Source: Fodinicola acaciae
Lineage (GTDB): Bacteria; Actinomycetota; Actinomycetes; Mycobacteriales; HKI-0501
Reading direction: 5' to 3'
Length of the DNA: 64,000 nt
Assembly (NCBI RefSeq): GCF_010993745.1
Contig: NZ_WOTN01000001.1
Location: 2,235,235-2,299,234, forward strand
Positions 27,271 to 38,615 of this stretch are shown in pieces. Position numbers and translations under genes: made by a program. The notes beneath the pieces are model-generated. The model was not told the DNA's origin and made no database searches. It saw only the letters and a program-made list of their open reading frames with translations. How positions within the stretch are numbered: the first letter of the stretch is position 1; the number at the start of each line of letters is the position of its first letter.

Positions 27271-29028
27271 CTATTCCGGCTTGGCGTCGATGCCGGCTTC
27301 CTTGCGCTGTTGCGCGGTGATCGGCGCCGGAGCACCGGTCAGCGGGTCGAAACCGCCGCCGGTCTTCGGAAACGCGATCACGTCCCGGATCGAGTCCGAG
27401 CCGGCCAGCAGCGCGGTGATCCGGTCCCAGCCGAAGGCGATGCCGCCGTGCGGCGGCGGGCCGTACTGGAAGGCGTCGAGCAGGAAGCCGAACTTCTCCT
27501 GCGCCTCGTCCTCACCCAGACCCATGATCTCGAAGACCCGCTTCTGCACGTCGCGGTTGTGGATACGGATGGAGCCGCCGCCGATCTCGTTGCCGTTGCA
27601 GACGATGTCGTACGCGTAGGCCAGCGCGTTGCCGGGGTCCTTGTCGAAGGAGTCGATCCACTCCGGCTTCGGCGAGGTGAAGGCGTGGTGCACGGCGGTC
27701 CACTTGCCGCTGCCGACCGCCACGTCGCCGGCGCTGACCGCGGCCTCGGCCGGCTCGAACAGCGGCGCGTCGACGACCCACACGAACGACCAGGCACTCT
27801 CGTCGATCAGGCCGAGGCGGTGACCGATCTCGACCCGCGCCGCGCCAAGCAGAGCGCGCGCCGACGACGGGTCGCCGGCGCCGAAGAAGACCGCGTCGCC
27901 GACCTGCGCACCGGTGGCCGCGGCCAGGCCGGCGCGCTCGGACTCGGACAGGTTCTTGGCGACCGGACCGCCGAGCGTGCCGTCCTCCAGGAACGTCACG
28001 TACGCCAGGCCGCGCGCACCGCGCTGCTTGGCCCACTCCTGCCACGCGTCGAACTGCCGCCGCGGCAGCGAGGCACCGCCGGCCATCACCACGGAACCGA
28101 CGTACGGCGCCTGGAAGACCCGGAACGGCGTCTGCGCGAAGTACGCCGTCATGTCGGTCAGCTCCAGGCCAAACCGCAGGTCCGGCTTGTCGGTGCCATA
28201 GCGGCTCATGGCGTCCGCGTACGTGATCCGCGGGATCGGCGTCAGCACCTCGTGGCCGATCAGCCGCCACAGCGCGGCCAGCAGCTCCTCGGTGAGCGCG
28301 ATGACGTCGTCCTGCTCCACGAAGGACATCTCGATGTCCAGCTGGGTGAACTCCGGCTGCCGGTCGGCGCGGAAGTCCTCGTCGCGATAGCACCGCGCGA
28401 TCTGGTAATAGCGCTCCATGCCACCGACCATCAGCAGCTGCTTGAACAGCTGCGGCGACTGCGGCAGCGCATACCAGGAGCCCGGCCGCAGCCGTGCCGG
28501 CACCACGAAGTCGCGCGCGCCTTCCGGCGTCGAGCGGGTCATCGTCGGCGTCTCGATCTCGACGAAGTCGTGCCGGTGCAACACCTCGCGGGCCGTACGG
28601 CTGACCTCGCTGCGCAGCCGGATCGCGCGTCCCGGCGCGGTGCGGCGCAGGTCGAGATAGCGGTATTTCAGCCGTACGTCCTCGCCGACGTCGACGTGGT
28701 CGTCGATCTGGAACGGCAGCGGCGCCGCCTCCGACAGCACCTCCAACTCGTCGGCGATGACCTCGATCGCGCCGGTCGGGATAGCGTCGTTGGCATTGCC
28801 TTCCGGCCGCTCGGCAACCTGGCCGGTGACCTTGATGCAGTATTCGTTGCGGAGGTTGTGCGCCACCTCCTCGTCGCGCACCACCACCTGCGCGACGCCG
28901 GACGCGTCCCGCAGGTCGAGGAAGGCCACCCCGCCGTGGTCGCGGCGGCGCGCGACCCAGCCGGCCAGCGTCACGGTCTGGCCGGCGTGCGACGAGCGCA
29001 GCGTGCCGGCCTCATGCGTACGTATCAC
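27271..29028 (-). CDS. aspS: Aspartyl-tRNA synthetase (bacterial type)
   Basis: The product has 585 residues with the large bacterial insertion. The N-terminal OB-fold anticodon-binding domain includes '[21 protein letters not shown]', then class II motifs 2 ('[26 protein letters not shown]') and 3 ('[15 protein letters not shown]'), with the GAD domain between. It may be non-discriminating (Asp/Asn), as in many actinobacteria that lack AsnRS. The GTG at 29028 has AGGAG 6 bases upstream. In many relatives it is next to hisS; here 8 kb of sigma/propeller genes separate them. Confidence 0.97.
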
Positions 29029-29176: not shown

Positions 29177-30514
29177 TCAGTCCGGCATCGGCAGCCGCCT
29201 CCAGTGCAGGCCGTCCGCGGACAGCAGATAACGGCCGGGCTCGGCCACCGTCGAACTGCCGAGGACCACGATCACGTAGCCGTCGCGGCTGTTGCCGGAG
29301 ATGTCACCGGAACCGGCCAGGCCGTCCAGCGACGGCAGGTCGGCGACCCTGGCAAACGTACGTCCGCCGTCGGTCGACCGGCCGACGGCCCAGCCGCCGC
29401 CGACTGCCGTGGTGCCGCGCAGGCCGCTCGCCGTACCGACCAGGCTGCCGTCCGGCAGCACGACCACGTTCTGGATCTCGAACGCGCCGGTCGCCGGCAC
29501 GCGCGGACCCCAGGTCCGGCCTCCGTCGGTGCTGGTGCGGATGCCGAGCGGCACGACGGCGCCGTCGGTGGTCGGCTTGCCGTCGGCGTCCTCGCGTCGC
29601 GCGTCCGGTCCACCGAGCAGGTAGACGGTCCGTCCGTCCCTGGTCGCGACCTCCTGGTATCCGTTGCTGAGCTTGTCGTCGACGGTCGACGGCGACCAGG
29701 TGGCGCCGCGGTCGTGGCTGACCGCGATGCTGGTGACCCCCTGCGAGGGATTTCCGATGGCCCAGATCGACGCGTCCGGCGTGGTCTTCACGATGAACGG
29801 TGAGTTGCCCGGCTGCGTACGCAGCGGATGGTCGACGCCGGTGGCCGGGTCGACCGCGTCCACGGTCCTGGCATCCGGCTGGCCGATCCGCACTCGCAGG
29901 CGCCATCCGGCCGGTGCCACCGCCACCGGAGCACCGACGGCCAGGATCGGATCGCGGTTGTGCGGATCCGATTTCGGCACCGGCGCGCCGCCGGCACCGG
30001 CCGTCTTCCAGCTGGCACCGTTGTCCGTGGTGATCATCGAACCGATCACGACGCTGGTCGGACCAACCACCTGGATCGGCGGGAACAGCGCCTGGCCCGC
30101 GCCGGTGACCGGGTCCTCGCGGGACGGTGGCGGCGACGCTTTCGCGGCCGCCTGCCGAAGCTGGTCAGGCAGCTGCCTCCAGGACCAGTGCGCGCCTGCG
30201 TCGGTGCTCAACGCCAGCTCGTAGTCGCCGCGCTTCGACCTCATCACCGCGTACGCGCGGTGGCCGTCCGGCACCGCCATCGCCAGGACCCCGCCGTCGG
30301 CCGGCGACGCCGGCTGGCTGACGATCCGCTGCGTGCCGTAGAGGCCGCCGGCGAGGAGCAGCACCGCACTCACCGCGGCCGCGGCGCCGACGACTCGGCC
30401 GCGCACGCTCCGGCGGCGCGCGAGAGCACGCAGTTCGGCGGCTGACGCCAGCGGCACCGCGTGGATGACGTGCGTACGGATGTCCCTGACCTGCTGGTCG
30501 TTGATCGGGCTCAT
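29177..30514 (-). CDS. Membrane-anchored Asp-box (BNR) beta-propeller protein, module 1
   Basis: The product has 445 residues: a cytosolic tail of about 40 residues ending in Arg-rich 'ARRRSVRGR', one transmembrane helix (about 41-60), then an outside domain with repeated S/T-x-D-x-G-x-x-W/F boxes ('STDAGAHW', 'TTDNGASW', 'SHDRGATW', 'STDGGRTW', 'STDGGRTF') and a final 'SADGLHW', which is six blades of a sialidase-like propeller. Sialidase catalytic residues were not recognised. The ATG at 30514 overlaps the sigma factor stop (ATGA). By position it is the partner, perhaps the anti-sigma, of that factor and could sense an extracellular ligand. This is inference; no known anti-sigma domain was recognised. 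Confidence 0.85.
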   Translation of the reverse strand: MSPINDQQVRDIRTHVIHAVPLASAAELRALARRRSVRGRVVGAAAAVSAVLLLAGGLYGTQRIVSQPASPADGGVLAMAVPDGHRAYAVMRSKRGDYELALSTDAGAHWSWRQLPDQLRQAAAKASPPPSREDPVTGAGQALFPPIQVVGPTSVVIGSMITTDNGASWKTAGAGGAPVPKSDPHNRDPILAVGAPVAVAPAGWRLRVRIGQPDARTVDAVDPATGVDHPLRTQPGNSPFIVKTTPDASIWAIGNPSQGVTSIAVSHDRGATWSPSTVDDKLSNGYQEVATRDGRTVYLLGGPDARREDADGKPTTDGAVVPLGIRTSTDGGRTWGPRVPATGAFEIQNVVVLPDGSLVGTASGLRGTTAVGGGWAVGRSTDGGRTFARVADLPSLDGLAGSGDISGNSRDGYVIVVLGSSTVAEPGRYLLSADGLHWRRLPMPD

Positions 30515-31050
30515 CCGGTCCTCCCGATGTAGGCGGTCTTCGAATCGTCGGAACCGCTCGGCCTTTCGTCGCTGAGCAGGCCGGCCAGTGCCTCGCGGCC
30601 GCGGCTGAGCCGCGACTTCACCGTGCCGGCCGGCGTCCTGAGGCAGACGGCGATCTCCTCGACGCTCATGTCGGCGAAATAGTGCAGCGCGATCGCCTCG
30701 CGCTGTCCGGACGGCAGCTTGGAGACCGCGGTGAGCACCGCGACCCGGTCCGGCGCGAGCCCGGGTACCGCCGGATCCGGCGGGATCCGGCGTAACAGCA
30801 CGCCAAGTCTTCGGTGCCGGCGATAACGGCCGCGCGCGATGTTGATCGTCACCGTGCGCATCCACGCGACCGGGTTGTCGGCGTTGGCCACCCGCGACGG
30901 ACGCTGGAAGGCCTTCACGAAGGCCTCCTGCACCGCGTCCTGAGCGTCGGCCAGGTCGCCGGTCAGCGCGTACGCGGCGAGCACCAGCTGGCCACTGGCC
31001 TCGCGATACAGCCGCTCAACCGCCTCGACGGCGGGCTCTGCTTCGACCAT
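30511..31050 (-). CDS. ECF/SigE-family RNA polymerase sigma factor, module 1
   Basis: The product has 179 residues. Region 2 is 'AVERLYREASGQLVLAAYAL' through 'DAQDAVQEAFVKAF' and 'NPVAWMRTVTINIARGRYRR'; region 4 is 'LPSGQREAIALHYFADMSVE' with the helix-turn-helix 'TPAGTVKSRLSRGREAL'. It would direct RNA polymerase to a small regulon. ATG at 31050 follows GGGGG-TTTGG, a leader similar to that of module 2; an in-frame ATG lies at 31062. A GGAACC promoter signature is 63 bases upstream. The 4-base overlap with the downstream propeller gene ensures co-translation. Confidence 0.9.
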   Translation of the reverse strand: MVEAEPAVEAVERLYREASGQLVLAAYALTGDLADAQDAVQEAFVKAFQRPSRVANADNPVAWMRTVTINIARGRYRRHRRLGVLLRRIPPDPAVPGLAPDRVAVLTAVSKLPSGQREAIALHYFADMSVEEIAVCLRTPAGTVKSRLSRGREALAGLLSDERPSGSDDSKTAYIGRTG

Positions 31051-31086
31051 CCAAACCCCCATGTGGTGGCGAGTCGTCATCCCACC

Positions 31087-31123: not shown

Positions 31124-32419
31124 CTACAGAGCGACCGGCGGCACCGGAGCGGCCGTCCAGGACCGGCCGTCCGGCGAGAACAGGGCCTGCGGGTTGAGCC
31201 GGTCGACCGTCGCGGCCGGGCGCTCCGGCGACGACGGGTCGGCGCCCGACAGGATGACCGCGTAGCCACCACCGACCGTCGTGGTCAGTCCGCTCAGCGC
31301 CGCTGGCACCAACGCCGCCTGCCCCACCGGCCGGAACGTACGGCCACCGTCCTCGCTCCGCACCAGCGTCCCGGCCATGACCTGCTTCCCGCCGGCTGAC
31401 AGCTGGCGATCGCCGAGCAGGCCGATCAGCGTACGGTTGTCGGCCAGCAACTCCAACGCGGTCAGCGCCTGCGCGGTGGACGCCACATACGTCCAGTGCT
31501 GGCCGTAGTCGTGAGTGGTGTAGAGCTTCGAGCCGTCGGCCAGGTCGTCGCTGGCGTCGACCGCGACGTAGCCGACCGAGCCGTCGTACGTGGCGACCGC
31601 TCCGGTGCGCATCGGCGTGTCCGGTCGCGGTGTGAAGTCGCGCCAGGTGCGACCGCGGTCGCGGCTGACCCACACGGTGGCCGGGTTGCCGCTGGCCTTG
31701 CCGCCGTACGGCCCGAAGCCCCACAGCGAGCCGTCGGTGGCCGACACCGCGTCGTATCCGCCGTTCTGCACGGACAGGTGCTGGCCGCCGAACTCGTGCT
31801 CGACTCCGGTCGCCGGATCGGTCGCGGTCAAACCCTTGGTCTGCACACCGGGCCCGACGACCCAGGCCGGCGGCTGCGTCGGCACCGGATCGGCCAGCGA
31901 GTAGTCGACCTTCTGCCACGACCGGCCCATGTCCTTGGTGACCACGTCGGTGTCCTTGTTGAGCTGCGAGACCCGTACGGTCGTCGCGGTCAGCACGGTC
32001 ATCCTGGTGACCGCCGAGAACGCCACGATCGGCACCTGGTAGCCGGTCCACTCGACGCCGCCGCTGCTGGTCACCGCGAGCACCCAGCTCCGCTCGGCGT
32101 TGGAGCGTCCCAGCGCGTAGGTGATCTGCCGGTCGACCGGGACGACCTGCTCCAGCTGTACGGTCCGGTCGAGCGTGACGGCCGCGGCCACGTCACGCGG
32201 CTGGCCGGCCGCCAGCGAGTGCCGCACCTGCGGCACCGACCAACCGGCCAACCCCACCACGGCCAGCACGGCCACAAACAGCGTCGACATCGCATAGTGC
32301 CGATGCCGTCGCCGCCGGCGGCCCAATGCGCGTACCGCCGGCAGCTCCGGAAGCGCCCCCCGCTCCACCACGCCGGCCCGCACACCGGCGAAGCCGTCCT
32401 CCAGGTCCAACCGCCTCAC
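31124..32419 (-). CDS. Membrane-anchored Asp-box beta-propeller protein, module 2
   Basis: The product has 431 residues. A cytosolic tail of about 42 residues ending 'GRRRRRHRHY', a transmembrane helix (about 43-60), then a secreted propeller with Asp boxes 'TKDMGRSW', 'SRDRGRTW', 'THDYGQHW', 'SEDGGRTF' and 'SPDGRSW'. The start is GTG 32419, overlapping the sigma stop as GTGA; upstream in-frame starts lie inside the sigma gene. The layout matches modules 1, 3 and 4, yet the sequence is strongly diverged from them. Presumed sensor or anti-sigma partner of the sigma factor at 32416, by position only. Confidence 0.85.
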   Translation of the reverse strand: MRRLDLEDGFAGVRAGVVERGALPELPAVRALGRRRRRHRHYAMSTLFVAVLAVVGLAGWSVPQVRHSLAAGQPRDVAAAVTLDRTVQLEQVVPVDRQITYALGRSNAERSWVLAVTSSGGVEWTGYQVPIVAFSAVTRMTVLTATTVRVSQLNKDTDVVTKDMGRSWQKVDYSLADPVPTQPPAWVVGPGVQTKGLTATDPATGVEHEFGGQHLSVQNGGYDAVSATDGSLWGFGPYGGKASGNPATVWVSRDRGRTWRDFTPRPDTPMRTGAVATYDGSVGYVAVDASDDLADGSKLYTTHDYGQHWTYVASTAQALTALELLADNRTLIGLLGDRQLSAGGKQVMAGTLVRSEDGGRTFRPVGQAALVPAALSGLTTTVGGGYAVILSGADPSSPERPAATVDRLNPQALFSPDGRSWTAAPVPPVAL

Positions 32420-33021
32420 CTGCCGGCCCCCTCCACCAACAACCGTGTCTCCGGTACGGCGCGCTCGACCGGTGGCCGCATGGTGCCGGCCGCCGTCCCG
32501 ATGTCGATCCCCTGTTCGCGCATCAGCTTCGCGAGCGCCTGCCGTCCCCTGTGCAGCCGCGATTTCACCACGTTGACCGAGACCTTGAGCGTCCTGGCCA
32601 CGTCTTCCAGGGAGAAGTCCGCGAGATAGAAGAGCGCGATCACCTCGCGCTGCGCCTGCGGCAGCCGCCGCACCGTCTCGACCAGCACGATCCGGTCCGG
32701 GTCGGCCGCCGGCACCTCGCTGTCCGGCGCCGGCACGCGCCGCAGCAACACGTTGAGCCGCTGCTTGCGGCGAAACCGGCTGCGCGCGATGTTCAGCGTC
32801 ACGATCCGCATCCAGGCCACCGGGTTGTCGGCCCTGGCGACCTGGCCGGGACGCGCGAAGGCGCGGACGAACGCCTCCTGCACCGCGTCCTCGGCCTCGG
32901 CCAGGTCGCCGGTCAGCGCGTACGCGGCCACCAGCAGCTGCCGGGAGCACTCCCGGTAGAGCCGCTCAACGACCGCTTCGGCCCCGTACTCGCCGGTTGA
33001 GGCGCCGTCACGCTCGTCCAA
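32416..33021 (-). CDS. ECF/SigE-family sigma factor, module 2
   Basis: The product has 201 residues: region 2 'VVERLYRECSRQLLVAAYAL', 'EDAVQEAFVRAF', 'NPVAWMRIVTLNIARSRFRR'; region 4 'LPQAQREVIALFYLADFSLE' and 'VSVNVVKSRLHRGRQAL'. A 30-residue C-terminal tail (GTAAGTMRPPVERAVPETRL) is longer than in the other modules. The start is unusual. No ATG or GTG suits, and TTG at 33021 preceded by GGGGG-TTCAGGC is chosen because the same GGGGG leader precedes module 1. It is coupled to the propeller gene by a 4-base overlap. Confidence 0.88.
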   Translation of the reverse strand: MDERDGASTGEYGAEAVVERLYRECSRQLLVAAYALTGDLAEAEDAVQEAFVRAFARPGQVARADNPVAWMRIVTLNIARSRFRRKQRLNVLLRRVPAPDSEVPAADPDRIVLVETVRRLPQAQREVIALFYLADFSLEDVARTLKVSVNVVKSRLHRGRQALAKLMREQGIDIGTAAGTMRPPVERAVPETRLLVEGAGR

Positions 33022-33065
33022 GCCTGAACCCCCGTTCGGGTGCCGGACCTCCCTCTCACAGACTT

Positions 33066-33133: not shown

Positions 33134-34438
33134 CTACTTGCTGTTCGGCGGCTTTGGAACGGTGATGAACGTACTACCGTCGGAGGAGAACAGCCGACTG
33201 AGCGGGACATGCGGCTGGCTGCTGGACGTGTAGGCCAAACCGCCGGTCACCGTACGGACGAGCGCTCTGGCCAGGCCAATCTTGTCGTTCGCCACGAAGG
33301 TCCGGCCACCGTCCCGGCTGATCACCGCCGGACACTCGACAGGATTGCCGTCCTTTGCCAGTCTCGTGTCGGCGCTGAGCAACGCACCGTCCGGCGTGAC
33401 AGCCAGGCCCATCGGAATCCGCAGTCCGGCGACCGGCGTGAACGTGCTCCAGGTCTGGCCGCCGTCCCTACTCTCGGCCCGGATGACCGGATCGGAACGG
33501 CCAACCAGCGTGCCGCGGATCACGTACACCTTCTCGCCGTCCACTGTCGCGACCCACAGATCGCCGGCACCGCCGGTGCCTGCGAAGACATGCGTGCTCC
33601 AGGTCCGGCCGCGGTCGCGGCTCACCGCGACCGCCTTGTCATTGCGGCCACGCGCGCTGCCGACCACCCACAGCGAACCGTCCTTCGCCGGAACGACGAG
33701 CTTGTCGCCGTTGGGTCGGGTGTAGAGCTCAAGATCCGGCTGATGACGCAACAGGTGTTGGACGCCGGTCGCCGGATCGATCGCGACCAGTCGACCGTCG
33801 CCGCGGTTGACCACCACCCATCCGTTCTCGGCGGAGTCGATCGGATCTCCGAACGCGTCGGGGACTTCCTGCCAGGTGCGGCCACCGTCGCGCGTGAGGC
33901 CGGTCATAGACAACACAGTGTTCTCATCCAGGACCGTCACACCGATGAGGTGCACCGGAGGCTGCGACGTATCTGGATAAACATAGGGTTTGCCGTTTTT
34001 AAAGGACATTGTCCCGCCTTGTACGTAGGTCCGCGGCCGGAACTTCGCCGGAATCTCCCATGCCTTCCACGACTGTCCGCCGTCCGTCGTGTGCGCCAGC
34101 GCCGCACGCTGCGGGTCGCTCGCCCCCCCTGAAACGGCAAGCACGGCGTACGCCTGGCCCACGCCGAGCGGAAACTCGTCAAGGATCGACGACGGGGTTG
34201 TCAGCGACCATGGCTGGGCCGCGATCGGCCCCGCAGCCGCCAGACCGCCGTGGTCGAACGCGTGCGTGGTCGCGACAACGGCGCCGCCGGCGAGCGCGAT
34301 CGCCGCGACCGCCGCCGCACCACCGAGCTGGTGGCGCTGCCGCCGGCGACGGCTTTCGCCGACGATCGACGAGAACTCCGGAGTCTTGATCCGCTCGCGT
34401 ACGGCCGTCCGACCACGCTCGAAGTCACTGCTGTTCAC
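33134..34438 (-). CDS. Membrane-anchored Asp-box beta-propeller protein, module 3
   Basis: The product has 434 residues: a tail of about 37 residues with 'SRRRRQRH', a transmembrane helix (about 38-57), then a propeller with 'TTDGGQSW', 'TRDGGRTW', 'SRDRGRTW', 'SRDGGQTW', 'SRDGGRTF' and 'SSDGSTF'. The start is GTG 34438 (GTGA overlap with the sigma stop). The first blade, 'ALAHTTDGGQSWKAW', is closely matched by the relic at 36985-37021 ('AIAHTADGGRTWQAW'), so module 3 may be the closest living copy of the lost fifth module. Likely topology is N-in, C-out. Confidence 0.85.
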   Translation of the reverse strand: MNSSDFERGRTAVRERIKTPEFSSIVGESRRRRQRHQLGGAAAVAAIALAGGAVVATTHAFDHGGLAAAGPIAAQPWSLTTPSSILDEFPLGVGQAYAVLAVSGGASDPQRAALAHTTDGGQSWKAWEIPAKFRPRTYVQGGTMSFKNGKPYVYPDTSQPPVHLIGVTVLDENTVLSMTGLTRDGGRTWQEVPDAFGDPIDSAENGWVVVNRGDGRLVAIDPATGVQHLLRHQPDLELYTRPNGDKLVVPAKDGSLWVVGSARGRNDKAVAVSRDRGRTWSTHVFAGTGGAGDLWVATVDGEKVYVIRGTLVGRSDPVIRAESRDGGQTWSTFTPVAGLRIPMGLAVTPDGALLSADTRLAKDGNPVECPAVISRDGGRTFVANDKIGLARALVRTVTGGLAYTSSSQPHVPLSRLFSSDGSTFITVPKPPNSK

Positions 34439-34986
34439 GACGACTGCTCCTCGTCCAGTTCGACATCGGTCAGGATGGCGGCCAGCGTCGCGCGGCCGCG
34501 GGAGAGCCGGGCCTTGATGGTCCCGACCGGAGCGTTGAGAGTGCGCGCGATCTCGTCGATCGGCAGGTCCGCCAGATAGTGCAGCGCGATCGCCTCGGCC
34601 TGCGCGGCCGGCAGCCGACGTACGGCCGCCAGCACGGCCAGCCACTCCGGTCCGGCGTCCGGGATCTGTTGCGGTGGCGGCGGAATCCGCCGCAACAGGA
34701 TGTCCATCCGGTGCCGCCGCCGGAAGCGGCTGCGCGCGATGTTCAGCGACACCGTCCGCAGCCACGCCTCCGGACTGCTCGCGGACAGCACCTTCGCCGG
34801 CCGCGACACGGCTCGCACGAACGCCTCCTGCACGCAGTCCTGCGCCTCACCGAGGTCACCAGTCAACGTGTATGCCGCCAGCACGAGCCGTTCGTGCGTG
34901 GCGCGATAGATCTCCTCCAACTGCGCGACGGCGCCGGCTCTGCTCACCCGGCCGACCATCGCCTCACCCACAGCATGGATCGTCAC
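34435..34986 (-). CDS. ECF/SigE-family sigma factor, module 3
   Basis: The product has 183 residues. Region 2 is 'QLEEIYRATHERLVLAAYTL', 'CVQEAFVRAVSRP' and 'SPEAWLRTVSLNIARSRFRR'; region 4 is 'LPAAQAEAIALHYLADLPID' with 'APVGTIKARLSRGRATL'. GTG 34986, with GGGGAG just upstream, is preferred; ATG 35027 and the internal ATG of 'MVGRVSR' are alternatives. A much longer open frame to 35679 is only the antisense frame of the next propeller gene. It is coupled to the propeller gene downstream. Confidence 0.88.
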   Translation of the reverse strand: MTIHAVGEAMVGRVSRAGAVAQLEEIYRATHERLVLAAYTLTGDLGEAQDCVQEAFVRAVSRPAKVLSASSPEAWLRTVSLNIARSRFRRRHRMDILLRRIPPPPQQIPDAGPEWLAVLAAVRRLPAAQAEAIALHYLADLPIDEIARTLNAPVGTIKARLSRGRATLAAILTDVELDEEQSS

Positions 34987-35063: not shown

Positions 35064-36344
35064 CTATTTCACCGTGTTGTCGACCGGCGCCGCAGGGATG
35101 ACCGACCAGTGCACCCCGTCCTCGGACACCCGGAAGTTGTTGCGGAACGCGGCACCGCCGATCGGCGAGATGTACGCGCCTGTGACGGTGGTGCGGAAGC
35201 CCACCGGAGATCCGGTGTCCGGGACCGAGCTGAACGTCCGGCCGCCGTCCCGGCTGACGAGGAAGCCGGCATCGGAGTTGGCCGTCCCCCACAGCGTCCC
35301 GTCCGCGGACACCGCCAACTGCGCCAGGTCCGCCCCCAACGCCTTCTTCGTCCAGGTCGTCCCGCCGTCGGTGGACACCAGCGCCGCGGTCCCCGTCATG
35401 GCCGTGCCGTTCGACCGCATCAACAGTGCGTACGTCGTGCCGTCGGCTGCCGTCACTGGCGGCGACAGTACACATCCGTACGCGACCGGCACCTGGTAGG
35501 TCGACCAGTTCGCGCCACCGTCCGTGCTGTGGCTGACGGTGCAGCCGGGCTTGCCGAATTCGACCTGCCGGACAGCCCACAGCACACCGTCGCGGCCTGC
35601 GGCGGCCGAGGTCATCGCTGGCTGCCGAGCCAGCTGGTGCCAGACCACCGTGGACAGATCCACGGCGTACAGATGGCACACCGACCCGTCGCCGGCGCAG
35701 AAGGTGTTCATTACCTGCCCCCTGCCAAACGCCTCGACCGGAGCACCGACCGTGATGGTCAACGGCCTGCTCTCCTGCCAGTTGGTCACATTGCCGGCGA
35801 CCCGCTGACCGGCCGCCTTCGACCAGGTCTGGCCGGCATCGCGGCTGACGTAGTCACCAAGCAGCAGCACCGTCCGGCTGAGCGCCACGAACGGGGTCAG
35901 GACATATCCCGTCGAGTCAGGCTTGGCGGCGCCGGCCGGCACCTGCCACGCGTGCCAGGTCGCGCCGCTGTCAGTCGTGCGCGCCACCGCGAACCGCTTG
36001 CCGTCCTGGACCAAGGCATAGACCTGTCGCTGGTCGACGACCTCGTACGACTGGGCCTTCATCGCCTTCGTCAGGGTCACCGGCCCGCCGGCGATCGATC
36101 CACGCACCGAGCCGGCCAGCAGGTCGGGCCCGGCCGCCGGTTGCTCCTTCGTGCCATGCGACCCGGTGAGCAGCGGTATGGCCGCGATGGCCAGCGCGGC
36201 CAGCACCGCGACCGCGGCGACTCCGGCGACGCGGCGGCGGCGTACCCGGCCGCGCGCCTGCCGGCCGAGGTCGTCCAGATCCGGGAACCGGCCGGCGGCG
36301 ACCACGTCCTCACGCAGGCGCACCAGCTCGTCTGACATCATCAC
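35064..36344 (-). CDS. Membrane-anchored Asp-box beta-propeller protein, module 4
   Basis: The product has 426 residues: a tail of about 39 residues with 'RQARGRVRRRR', a transmembrane helix (about 40-59), and a propeller with 'TTDSGATW', 'SRDAGQTW', 'STDGGANW', 'STDGGTTW', 'SRDGGRTF' and 'SEDGVHW'. It has Cys residues in the middle blades ('NTFCAGDGSVCHLY'), which could form an extracellular disulfide. GTG 36344 gives the GTGA overlap seen in modules 2 and 3; ATG 36341 is possible. Its tail 'SDELVRLREDVVAAGRFPDLDDL' looks most like a short anti-sigma-type helix, but that is a guess. Confidence 0.85.
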   Translation of the reverse strand: MMMSDELVRLREDVVAAGRFPDLDDLGRQARGRVRRRRVAGVAAVAVLAALAIAAIPLLTGSHGTKEQPAAGPDLLAGSVRGSIAGGPVTLTKAMKAQSYEVVDQRQVYALVQDGKRFAVARTTDSGATWHAWQVPAGAAKPDSTGYVLTPFVALSRTVLLLGDYVSRDAGQTWSKAAGQRVAGNVTNWQESRPLTITVGAPVEAFGRGQVMNTFCAGDGSVCHLYAVDLSTVVWHQLARQPAMTSAAAGRDGVLWAVRQVEFGKPGCTVSHSTDGGANWSTYQVPVAYGCVLSPPVTAADGTTYALLMRSNGTAMTGTAALVSTDGGTTWTKKALGADLAQLAVSADGTLWGTANSDAGFLVSRDGGRTFSSVPDTGSPVGFRTTVTGAYISPIGGAAFRNNFRVSEDGVHWSVIPAAPVDNTVK

Positions 36345-36859
36345 GCGATCTCACCTACCGTGGCAGTCGGAAACGGACGCAGGTCACCGAGCCGCACGGC
36401 CAGCGCCGCGCGTCCGCGGGACAACCGGGACTTCACCGTGCCGGCGGACACCCCGAGCGTGTCCGCGATCTCTTCGACAGACAGGTCGGCGACGTAGAAC
36501 AGTGCGATCGCCTCGCGCTGGCCGCGCGGCAGCGACCTGATCGCGTCGAGCATCACCACCCGATCGGGCGTCGGCTCGGGTACGTCAGGCGGCCGCAGAC
36601 CGCTGCGAACCAGCAGCTCGGCGCGATGCCGCACGCGCCGCCACCGGCTGATGGCGACGTTGCGGGTCACCCGCCGCAGCCACGCCTCCGGACTGTCCGC
36701 GCCCAGCACCTTGGACCGGTTGACCAGCGCACGGATGAACGTCTCCTGGACCACGTCCTCCGCCTCGGCCATGTTGCCGGTCAAGGCGAACGCACTGACC
36801 AGGATCCGGTCGTAGGTGTCCCTGAAGAGCTCGTCCAGCTCGCCTTTGTCGGCTTCCAC
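36341..36859 (-). CDS. ECF/SigE-family sigma factor, module 4
   Basis: The product has 172 residues. Region 2 is 'ELDELFRDTYDRILVSAFAL', 'VVQETFIRALVN' and 'SPEAWLRRVTRNVAISRWRR'; region 4 is 'LPRGQREAIALFYVADLSVE' with 'VSAGTVKSRLSRGRAAL'. The GTG at 36859 has GGGGTGAGG upstream. Region 2.4 differs clearly from modules 1-3 ('NVAISRW' against 'NIARSRF/NIARGRY'), consistent with different promoter preference. It overlaps the propeller gene by 4 bases. Upstream lie its promoter signature and a broken fifth module. Confidence 0.9.
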   Translation of the reverse strand: MEADKGELDELFRDTYDRILVSAFALTGNMAEAEDVVQETFIRALVNRSKVLGADSPEAWLRRVTRNVAISRWRRVRHRAELLVRSGLRPPDVPEPTPDRVVMLDAIRSLPRGQREAIALFYVADLSVEEIADTLGVSAGTVKSRLSRGRAALAVRLGDLRPFPTATVGEIA

Positions 36860-36897
36860 ACCTCACCCCGCTTCCTTCGTCACTCTGTCAACTCGCT

Positions 36898-36924
36898 GAC
36901 ATCGCGACCACCGAGGAAGGTTCC
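36898..36924 (-). promoter_or_regulatory. ECF-type promoter signature before sigma module 4
   Basis: GGAAC (36924-36920), 19 bases, GTC (36900-36898) on the minus strand, 38 bases before the GTG start. It is the fourth occurrence of the same arrangement at nearly the same distance from a sigma gene. Confidence 0.55.
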
Positions 36925-36944
36925 AGACACGACGAAGCCGCCGT

Positions 36945-37200
36945 ACGCGGCATGCGTACGGCGGCCGGGGCGGGTCCAGGCCTGCCAGGTCCTTCCGCCG
37001 TCGGCGGTGTGCGCGATCGCCCTCGGAAGGCCCGGACCTGGCGCCGGCCCACGCGTTCGACGCCGGAAGACTCCGGAATGACGAGCATCTGCCGGCGCCG
37101 ACAGCGGCCGCGTGCCACGGTCATGACGACCGTGAGCAGCCACTTTCTCCGGATTGTCGGCGGCCAGTACGCGCCGCGGTAGATCTCCGCTATCCCGACG
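36945..37200 (-). pseudogene. Relic of a fifth sigma/propeller module
   Basis: Translated in all minus-strand frames, this stretch contains pieces of both gene types in the right order. 'GIAEIYRGA' is like the start of sigma region 2. 'RVLAADNPEK' in another frame is like 'KVLGADSPEAW' of module 4. 'KWLLTVVMTVARGRCRRRQ' in a third matches region 2.4 ('TVTINIARGRYRR'). Then 'AIAHTADGGRTWQAW' matches the first Asp-box blade of module 3. Several internal deletions and frameshifts are needed. No intact gene can be drawn between 36860 and 37231. Confidence 0.7.
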
Positions 37201-37231
37201 CCCGCCTCCGCACGGTCACGTCTGGCTGCGG

Positions 37232-38563
37232 CTAACCCGAGATGATGCCGGGCCACCGGTCGGCGTCCGGCGGCTGCCAGCCGGCCGGGTCGGCGTCGAC
37301 CTGGTCGCCGGAGCGGATGTCCTTGACCTGGTCGGTTCCCCCGGGGAACCACACGTACGGGATGCCGCGCCGCTGCGCGTACCGGATCTGCTTGCCGAAT
37401 TTCGCCGCGCTGGGCGACACCTCGGTGGCGATGCCGCGGCGCCGCAGCGCGTTGGCGATCCGCCGGCAGGCCGGCCGGTCGTCCTCGGACGGCAACGCCA
37501 CGAGTACGCAGGTCGGCACCGACCGCGTCGCGGTGAGCTGGTCGCGGCCGAACAGCCGGCCGAGGATCCGCGACACGCCGATGGACAGGCCGTTGCCCGG
37601 GTAGGTCGTCTTCCCGTCGGTGGCCAGCGAGTCGTAGCGGCCGCCGGAGCACACGCTGCCGAGGTCCTCGTGCCCCTCCATCACCGTCTCGTAGACCGTG
37701 CCGGTGTAGTAGTCCAGGCCGCGCGCGATCTTCAGGTCGGCGGTGAGGAACCCCGGCGCGTACTCCAGACCGGCCTCGATCACCGCGGCCAGCTCCTCAA
37801 GGCCGGTGTCCAGCAGCTCGTGCGAGACGCCGAGCGCGCGCACCCTGTCGACGAAGGACAGGTCAGGCGTGCGGATCTCGGCCAGCGACAGGCACGCGTC
37901 GGCCTGCCCGTCGGTCAGCGACAGCTCGTCGACGAGCAGCTTGCGTACGACGTCCGGGCCGACCTTGTCGAGCTTGTCGACCCGCTGCAGCACCTCGGCT
38001 GGCTCCTCGATGCCGATGCCCCGATAGAAACCCTCGGCGAGCTTGCGGTTGTTGACGTTCATCCGCAGCGGCGGCAACGGCAGCGCGGCCACCGCGTCGG
38101 CGACGACCAGCGGCAGCTCCACGTCGTAGTGCGCCGGCAGGTTGTCACGATCGACGATGTCGATGTCGGCCTGCAGGAACTCGCGATAACGGCCCTCCTG
38201 CGGCCGCTCGCCGCGCCAGGCCTTCTGGATCTGGTAGCGGCGGAACGGAAACTCCAGCTTGCCGGCGTTTTCCAGCACGTACCGCGCGAACGGCACGGTC
38301 ATGTCGAAGTGCAGCGCCAGCGTCTTGGCCGGATCGAGATCGTCGCCGGAGTCGGCGTGCAGCCGGCGTACGACGTAGACCTCCTTGTCGATCTCGCCTT
38401 TGCGCTGGATGACCTCCAACGGCTCGACGGCGCGCGTCTCGACGGACACGAATCCGTGCAGCTCGAACGTACGGCGAAGGGTGTCGACGACCTGCTGCTC
38501 GACGATGCGCTGCGGCGGCAGCCACTCCGGATAGCCGGACAGTGGACGGGGCTGGCTGGGCAT
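37232..38563 (-). CDS. hisS: Histidyl-tRNA synthetase
   Basis: The product has 443 residues. Class II motif 1 region 'GYPEWLPPQRIVEQQVVDTL', motif 2 'FRRYQIQKAWRGERPQEGRYREF', the His-specific 'ARGLDYYTGTVYE', and motif 3 'GNGLSIGVSRILGRLFG' are present, followed by the C-terminal anticodon-binding domain. ATG at 38563 has AGGAG 4 bases upstream; the longer open frame to 38776 reads into the metallo-beta-lactamase gene. It starts 52 bases after that gene and probably shares its transcript. Confidence 0.97.
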   Translation of the reverse strand: MPSQPRPLSGYPEWLPPQRIVEQQVVDTLRRTFELHGFVSVETRAVEPLEVIQRKGEIDKEVYVVRRLHADSGDDLDPAKTLALHFDMTVPFARYVLENAGKLEFPFRRYQIQKAWRGERPQEGRYREFLQADIDIVDRDNLPAHYDVELPLVVADAVAALPLPPLRMNVNNRKLAEGFYRGIGIEEPAEVLQRVDKLDKVGPDVVRKLLVDELSLTDGQADACLSLAEIRTPDLSFVDRVRALGVSHELLDTGLEELAAVIEAGLEYAPGFLTADLKIARGLDYYTGTVYETVMEGHEDLGSVCSGGRYDSLATDGKTTYPGNGLSIGVSRILGRLFGRDQLTATRSVPTCVLVALPSEDDRPACRRIANALRRRGIATEVSPSAAKFGKQIRYAQRRGIPYVWFPGGTDQVKDIRSGDQVDADPAGWQPPDADRWPGIISG

Positions 38564-38615
38564 GGTTCTCCTGATGCTCTGGTGTACGGACGTGTGGTCG
38601 CTGGGTCGGCGGCGC

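Follow-up and report, generated by a model that had tools for sequence, protein, structure and literature searches.

The interval between hisS and aspS of Fodinicola acaciae was analysed in a window of 64,000 nucleotides, the whole stretch of DNA considered here. The interval carries four intact modules (A to D), each composed of a sigma gene and a propeller gene, and the remains of one more. In order from hisS, the features are:

37232..38566, minus strand: hisS, the left anchor of the interval
36961..37193, minus strand: relic of a sigma-propeller module, read as a pseudogene (frameshift-aware and residue-level alignments)
37167..37193, minus strand: sigma region 2.1 fragment of the relic, IAEIYRGAY (residue-level alignment)
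37083..37170, minus strand: sigma pre-2.4/2.4 fragment of the relic, VLAADNPEK, with a frameshift, WLLTVVMTVARGRCRRRQML (residue-level alignment)
37024..37065, minus strand: possible remnant of the linker between sigma regions 2 and 4, RRRTRGPAPGPGLP (weak; seen by eye and in one low-weight alignment)
36961..37023, minus strand: propeller blade 1 fragment of the relic, with Asp-box, RAIAHTADGGRTWQAWTRPGR (alignment)
36936..36966, no strand: perfect hairpin (13-bp stem, 5-nt loop) at the margin of the relic
36341..36859, minus strand: sigA, the sigma gene of the first intact module, SigE-fam_strep
35064..36344, minus strand: propA, TM-anchored BNR/Asp-box propeller protein, putative anti-sigma
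33134..34959, minus strand: module B (sigB, propB)
31124..33030, minus strand: module C (sigC, propC), start approximate
29177..31080, minus strand: module D (sigD, propD), start approximate
27271..29028, minus strand: aspS, the right anchor of the interval

All four sigma factors of the window resemble SigE-fam_strep (TIGR02983), which is their top NCBIfam match; sigA (142.2 bits) lies above the cut-off of 141.55 bits, and sigB (125.3), sigC (124.9) and sigD (137.8) lie below it, while the relic keeps pieces of region 2 only. Pfam Sigma70_r2 and Sigma70_r4_2 are above cut-off in all four intact sigma factors. Their four partners are encoded adjacent to them and have a short N-terminus and one hydrophobic stretch from about residue 38-44 (as judged by hydropathy only). 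The Pfam BNR repeat is found in all partners and is above cut-off in three; for propC it scores 20.7 against a cut-off of 27 bits, and BNR_2 scores 31.6 against 31.4. A profile of the partners matches sialidases in the PDB, and a modest structure model of propB (mean pLDDT 66.6, built from four sequences) yielded sortilin, YCF48, sialidases and GH74 enzymes in Foldseek. We infer that the partners may act as anti-sigma factors.

The tested precedent for such an anti-sigma factor is Tt-TolB of Thermoanaerobacter tengcongensis. In the parts of the paper used here, the gene of the ECF sigma factor Tt-RpoE1 is directly followed by a membrane-protein gene, and residues 1-39 of Tt-TolB bind the sigma factor, residues 39-61 form a TM segment, and the large outer domain carries a TolB annotation (PMC3397946). 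The intact partners of the window, with a hydrophobic segment at about residue 40, are similar to Tt-TolB in this respect. They differ in that the outer domain is of the BNR/Asp-box and not the TolB type and that the Tt pair is single; moreover, binding was demonstrated for Tt-RpoE1/Tt-TolB (PMC3397946) and is only predicted for the window pairs. A literature search for ECF sigma factors together with BNR repeats in actinobacteria retrieved nothing, which does not prove absence in print; a paper on Leptospira mentions an ECF sigma factor, a beta-propeller and an anti-sigma factor. Upstream of sigA, at 36898-36924 on the minus strand, the motif GGAACC ... TGTC resembles an ECF promoter. A common autoregulatory promoter (GGAAC/GAACC, 15-18 nt, NGTC) was found in five of 40 upstream regions and 15 of 608 control pieces, and was rejected as too weak.

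The relic is situated between hisS and module A, in the stretch 36860-37231 that forms the gap from the hisS stop to the sigA start, and its sigma pieces precede blade 1, as in an intact module. The minus strand of this stretch was compared with the four sigma factors and four propellers of the window by frameshift-aware local alignment; two nulls were used, one of 200 dinucleotide shuffles and the other of 428 real segments of 372 bases, taken from both strands of the window outside the array. The scores of sigB (78), sigD (76), propB (75), sigC (69) and propA (65) were reached by none of the shuffles and none of the real segments, the top real segment being close behind propB at 74 (one control). 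The scores of propD (60; 3/200 shuffles and 4/428 segments) and sigA (53; 1/200 and 2/428) were weaker and marginal, and propC was not significant (43; 37/200 and 135/428). Hence, in the translated alignment that the earlier note had proposed, five of the eight queries beat both nulls, and the similarity is not at shuffle level. The sigB score is partly inflated by a spurious run of the alignment into the propeller part of the relic; the clean sigma block alone scores 76 with sigD and 90 with sigX of a sister genome described below, the best query overall (maximum over 12 shuffles, 54).

It is extremely improbable that these matches represent chance similarity in GC-rich intergenic DNA. Such a reading could appeal to sigA, propC and propD, which by themselves are not convincing, but five queries exceed every control, the antisense strand of the same stretch scores 27-46 (sigB, sigC, sigD, propA, propB, sigA, propD), and none of the four other gaps of the window array has debris above the null.

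The earlier note had described four blocks, region 2.1, the block preceding region 2.4, region 2.4 itself and the first propeller blade, broken by deletions and frameshifts. Since all four were placed by residue-level alignments on the minus strand and in gene order, they are real; two or more internal deletions and one or more frameshifts separate them. In the possible linker remnant RRRTRGPAPGPGLP (37024-37065, minus strand) the frame stays open into the blade. The left edge proposed at 36945 is slightly too far out, as the aligned blade stops at 36961 and 36936-36966 is the hairpin. The relic does not have the intact frame of an ECF sigma factor of the SigE family: region 4 is absent and there are a frameshift and deletions, so it is a pseudogene and not a member of the family. 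At the level of sequence analysis, the assignment of 36961-37193 (minus strand) as a pseudogene of a sigma-propeller module is confirmed. Over the 62 aligned codons its GC3 is 0.90, within the 0.80 to 0.94 of the intact genes; this would fit recent decay, but G+C-rich mutation would give the same value.

It is very unlikely that the stretch has a function at present, whether through a regulatory RNA or through a small protein made from its open frame. The hairpin is strong, and a frame is open across the stretch (ORF 36888-37652, minus strand); however, at this G+C content long open frames occur often (88 ORFs of at least 100 aa overlap 24 kb), and the blocks with homology are not all in one frame. 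A search for RNA families gave nothing convincing, the sole Rfam match, P17, being far below the gathering score (18.3 versus 45 bits, E 0.052). The hairpin may be the putative end of hisS transcription; the terminator scan found no U-tailed terminator for it.

The same interval was compared with that of the sister genome G001, which fits F. feengrottensis and is the only other Fodinicola genome compared (two genomes of the genus). For F. acaciae GKU 173 and F. feengrottensis HKI 0501, an ANI of 77.92% is given in the part of PMC7232338 used here. The sister interval holds five sigma genes, which are, in order from hisS, X, the sigB orthologue, E, and the C and D orthologues. The sigma factors of the B, C and D orthologues are 78, 71 and 74% identical to their window counterparts and have the same order; the C and D orthologues keep their propellers, and the sigB orthologue is without its N-terminus. 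Module X adjoins hisS and is nearly whole. Its propeller gene, propX, is frameshifted once and continues without a stop into the truncated sigB copy (L039 5960-6428); the cause is either a genuine deletion, which may have taken an A-type module, or an error in the assembly. Unit E (L039 7780-8530), between B and C, consists of a sigma gene with one frameshift and a propeller of which about 40 codons are left; the B-C gap of the window shows no counterpart of it. One of the six sister gaps, C-D, was slightly above the null, with a score of 39, the highest of 12 shuffles reaching 36. The sister assembly is rich in frameshifts (11,978 CDS versus 8705), and as its aspS is likewise broken, matching in several shifted pieces, small frameshifts in the sister genes were not read as decay.

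The order of the relic pieces together with the five sigma genes in the same interval of the sister supports the loss of a fifth unit. This agrees with the earlier proposal that the array once had at least five units and that modules can be lost, and the comparison of the hisS-aspS interval with relatives, suggested at the same time, supplied the nearly whole X beside hisS. No module match was found in the interval of any of the 16 other members of the order whose interval was fetched, or between hisS and aspS in any of the 44 named genomes with both genes on one strand within the fetched stretch. These 44 belong to 80 named hisS loci, the other 36 of which do not reach aspS; at four of the latter (L151, L161, L169 and L170) sigma matches are located beyond hisS on the opposite strand. 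When the best five candidates per genome were scored, 93 of 298 genomes of the order had propeller profile matches (E <= 0.001), and full-length matches outside the genus came mostly from one family, f15.

The 41 sigma residues of the relic, compared with 38 sigma factors, are most similar to sister X (score 122, 25 of 41 identical), followed by sister E (120), L100 and L111 (116), and L093 (115), with the window's own sigB eighth (106). FastTree placed the relic in the X/L095/L096 clade with local support 0.753. IQ-TREE placement, tried on the 38 terminal branches only with internal branches left out, ranked L096 best, followed by L104, E, L095, L111, L100, L093 and X, so that X is eighth of 38, 2.3 log units below L096 (AU 0.174). 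For the window sigma factors, the AU values were 0.129 (sigA), 0.045 (sigB), 0.0225 (sigD) and 2e-5 (sigC); sigC and sigD are rejected. The relic blade, compared with 39 others, is closest to propB (75), X being tied ninth (65); the other window propellers score 65 (propA), 41 (propD) and 36 (propC). The suggestion made by eye that the relic is closest to module 3 is therefore correct for the blade among the four window modules, if these are numbered from the left, but not for the sigma part, for which sigB is at the edge of rejection and X-type and E-type sigma factors fit better. Nucleotide alignment was discarded as not discriminating for naming the parent module (X 48; L088 58, sister D 56, L096 52), and its top score, 82 for ownA, is an artefact, since 41 bases of the relic lay within the target stretch.

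Since X is not set apart by placement, by the blade or by the DNA scores, the orthology rests mainly on position, the candidate counterpart in the relative being module X beside hisS. By its sequence the relic would not be C or D and hardly B, and its position points to X; we consider orthology to sister X somewhat more probable than all other origins taken together. An appreciably smaller chance is given to a remnant of a module of the E type, or of another dispersed type, inserted beside hisS. Placement with E falls 0.67 log units short of the top one (AU 0.602; L104 0.60, L111 1.56), and the YRGAY of the 2.1 block is identical in sister sigE, but in the sister it is X that is beside hisS, while E lies between B and C, and X has the top simple score. 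It is improbable that a mere fragment was copied or inserted at this spot and that a whole module never existed there: about 230 nt survive and module fragments are present elsewhere in both genomes, yet the pieces of both genes are in native order and orientation and the sister has a nearly whole module in the same place.

We regard it as likely that a module with a sigma/anti-sigma-like pair was located directly downstream of hisS in the ancestor of both Fodinicola species and decayed on the branch leading to F. acaciae. Its counterpart would be sister module X. The intact module would have made a SigE-type ECF sigma factor and a membrane partner with about 40 cytoplasmic residues, one TM segment and an extracellular Asp-box propeller, and this partner would have held the sigma factor until the propeller met its signal. 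Regions 2.1 and 2.4 are 126 nt apart in X and 17 nt apart in the relic, 2.4 and blade 1 are separated by 605 nt in X and about 60 in the relic (62 from L to the first A of the blade), and after the blade X continues for about 900 nt, compared with about 100 nt to sigA in the relic. Measured against X, four segments would have been lost in decay: about 110 nt that lay between regions 2.1 and 2.4; about 540 nt between the latter and blade 1, corresponding to sigma region 4 with the sigma-binding end and TM segment of the anti-sigma factor; the propeller beyond blade 1; and, beside hisS, about 160 nt. At their joint, the 2.1 and 2.4 blocks have the tetranucleotide GTAC in common, as a putative deletion between short repeats would leave it. 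A deletion over the border of the sigma and anti-sigma genes would silence both partners and so leave neither an uncontrolled sigma factor nor an orphan anti-sigma factor.

Outside the array, we read the best 19 of the 71 SigE-type sigma matches in the F. acaciae genome. At 14 of these 19 loci the gene downstream is full length and encodes a hydrophobic segment and at least three Asp-boxes. In the 18 intact modules (these 14 and the four of the array) sigma and propeller distances are correlated (Spearman 0.354; none of 5000 permutations as high), which suggests that the two genes tend to travel together. Among the loci read (the same best 19 of 71), the nearest relatives of all four array sigma factors are dispersed (A-L087 0.57, B-L093 0.67, C-L089 0.64, D-L101 0.60), as are those of three of the four array propellers, the exception being propC, nearest to propB (0.30). 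Growth of the array by recent tandem duplication is therefore not supported; the array is an old, mixed collection. The birth-and-death that the earlier note had read from the locus is thus upheld as regards the loss of a fifth unit, but not as regards birth by tandem duplication within the array.

The turnover itself is real but not special to the array, since broken modules, two in F. acaciae and two in the sister, show that it is genome-wide. In F. acaciae, L104 (G000:C3, about 1325125; about 1426-1824 onwards) has a sigma gene truncated within region 4.1 and joined to blade 1 in the same reading frame, followed by a frameshift, and L103 (G000:C2, about 1140742; from about 1443) has an open sigma gene and a propeller that stops after blade 1, followed by DUF222 debris. 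In the sister, the sigma gene of L117 is cut after region 2 and fused to mid-propeller, and L111 (G001:C20, 1546-1860 onwards) is a cut sigma gene adjoining an MFS transporter gene. A tentative and rather unlikely generalization is that sigma/propeller pairs die preferentially by one border deletion that takes sigma region 4 and the binding and TM parts of the anti-sigma factor together, because the loss of one partner alone would be harmful. The window relic, L104 and L117 fit this idea; L103 and sister E, which kept the sigma gene and lost the propeller or most of it, and L111, which kept part of the sigma gene, are against it.

In summary, a pseudogene in an expanded gene family is a kind of finding already known, and such gene loss is fairly ordinary and expected in itself. 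In the Bacillus cereus group, expansion is concentrated in ECF sigma factors with dynamic duplication and loss, which, in the part of the paper used here, were inferred from gene content (PMC3171730); the Fodinicola remnant differs in that its joints are readable in place. A literature search for ECF sigma factor duplication as birth-and-death retrieved nothing, again without proving absence in print. With the relic, the loss of ECF sigma systems, otherwise an inferred process, can be read as an event with its joints. A genus in which some sigma/propeller pairs are intact and others broken, about twenty in all, could reveal the consequences of losing a sigma factor and its likely inhibitor jointly or one at a time.
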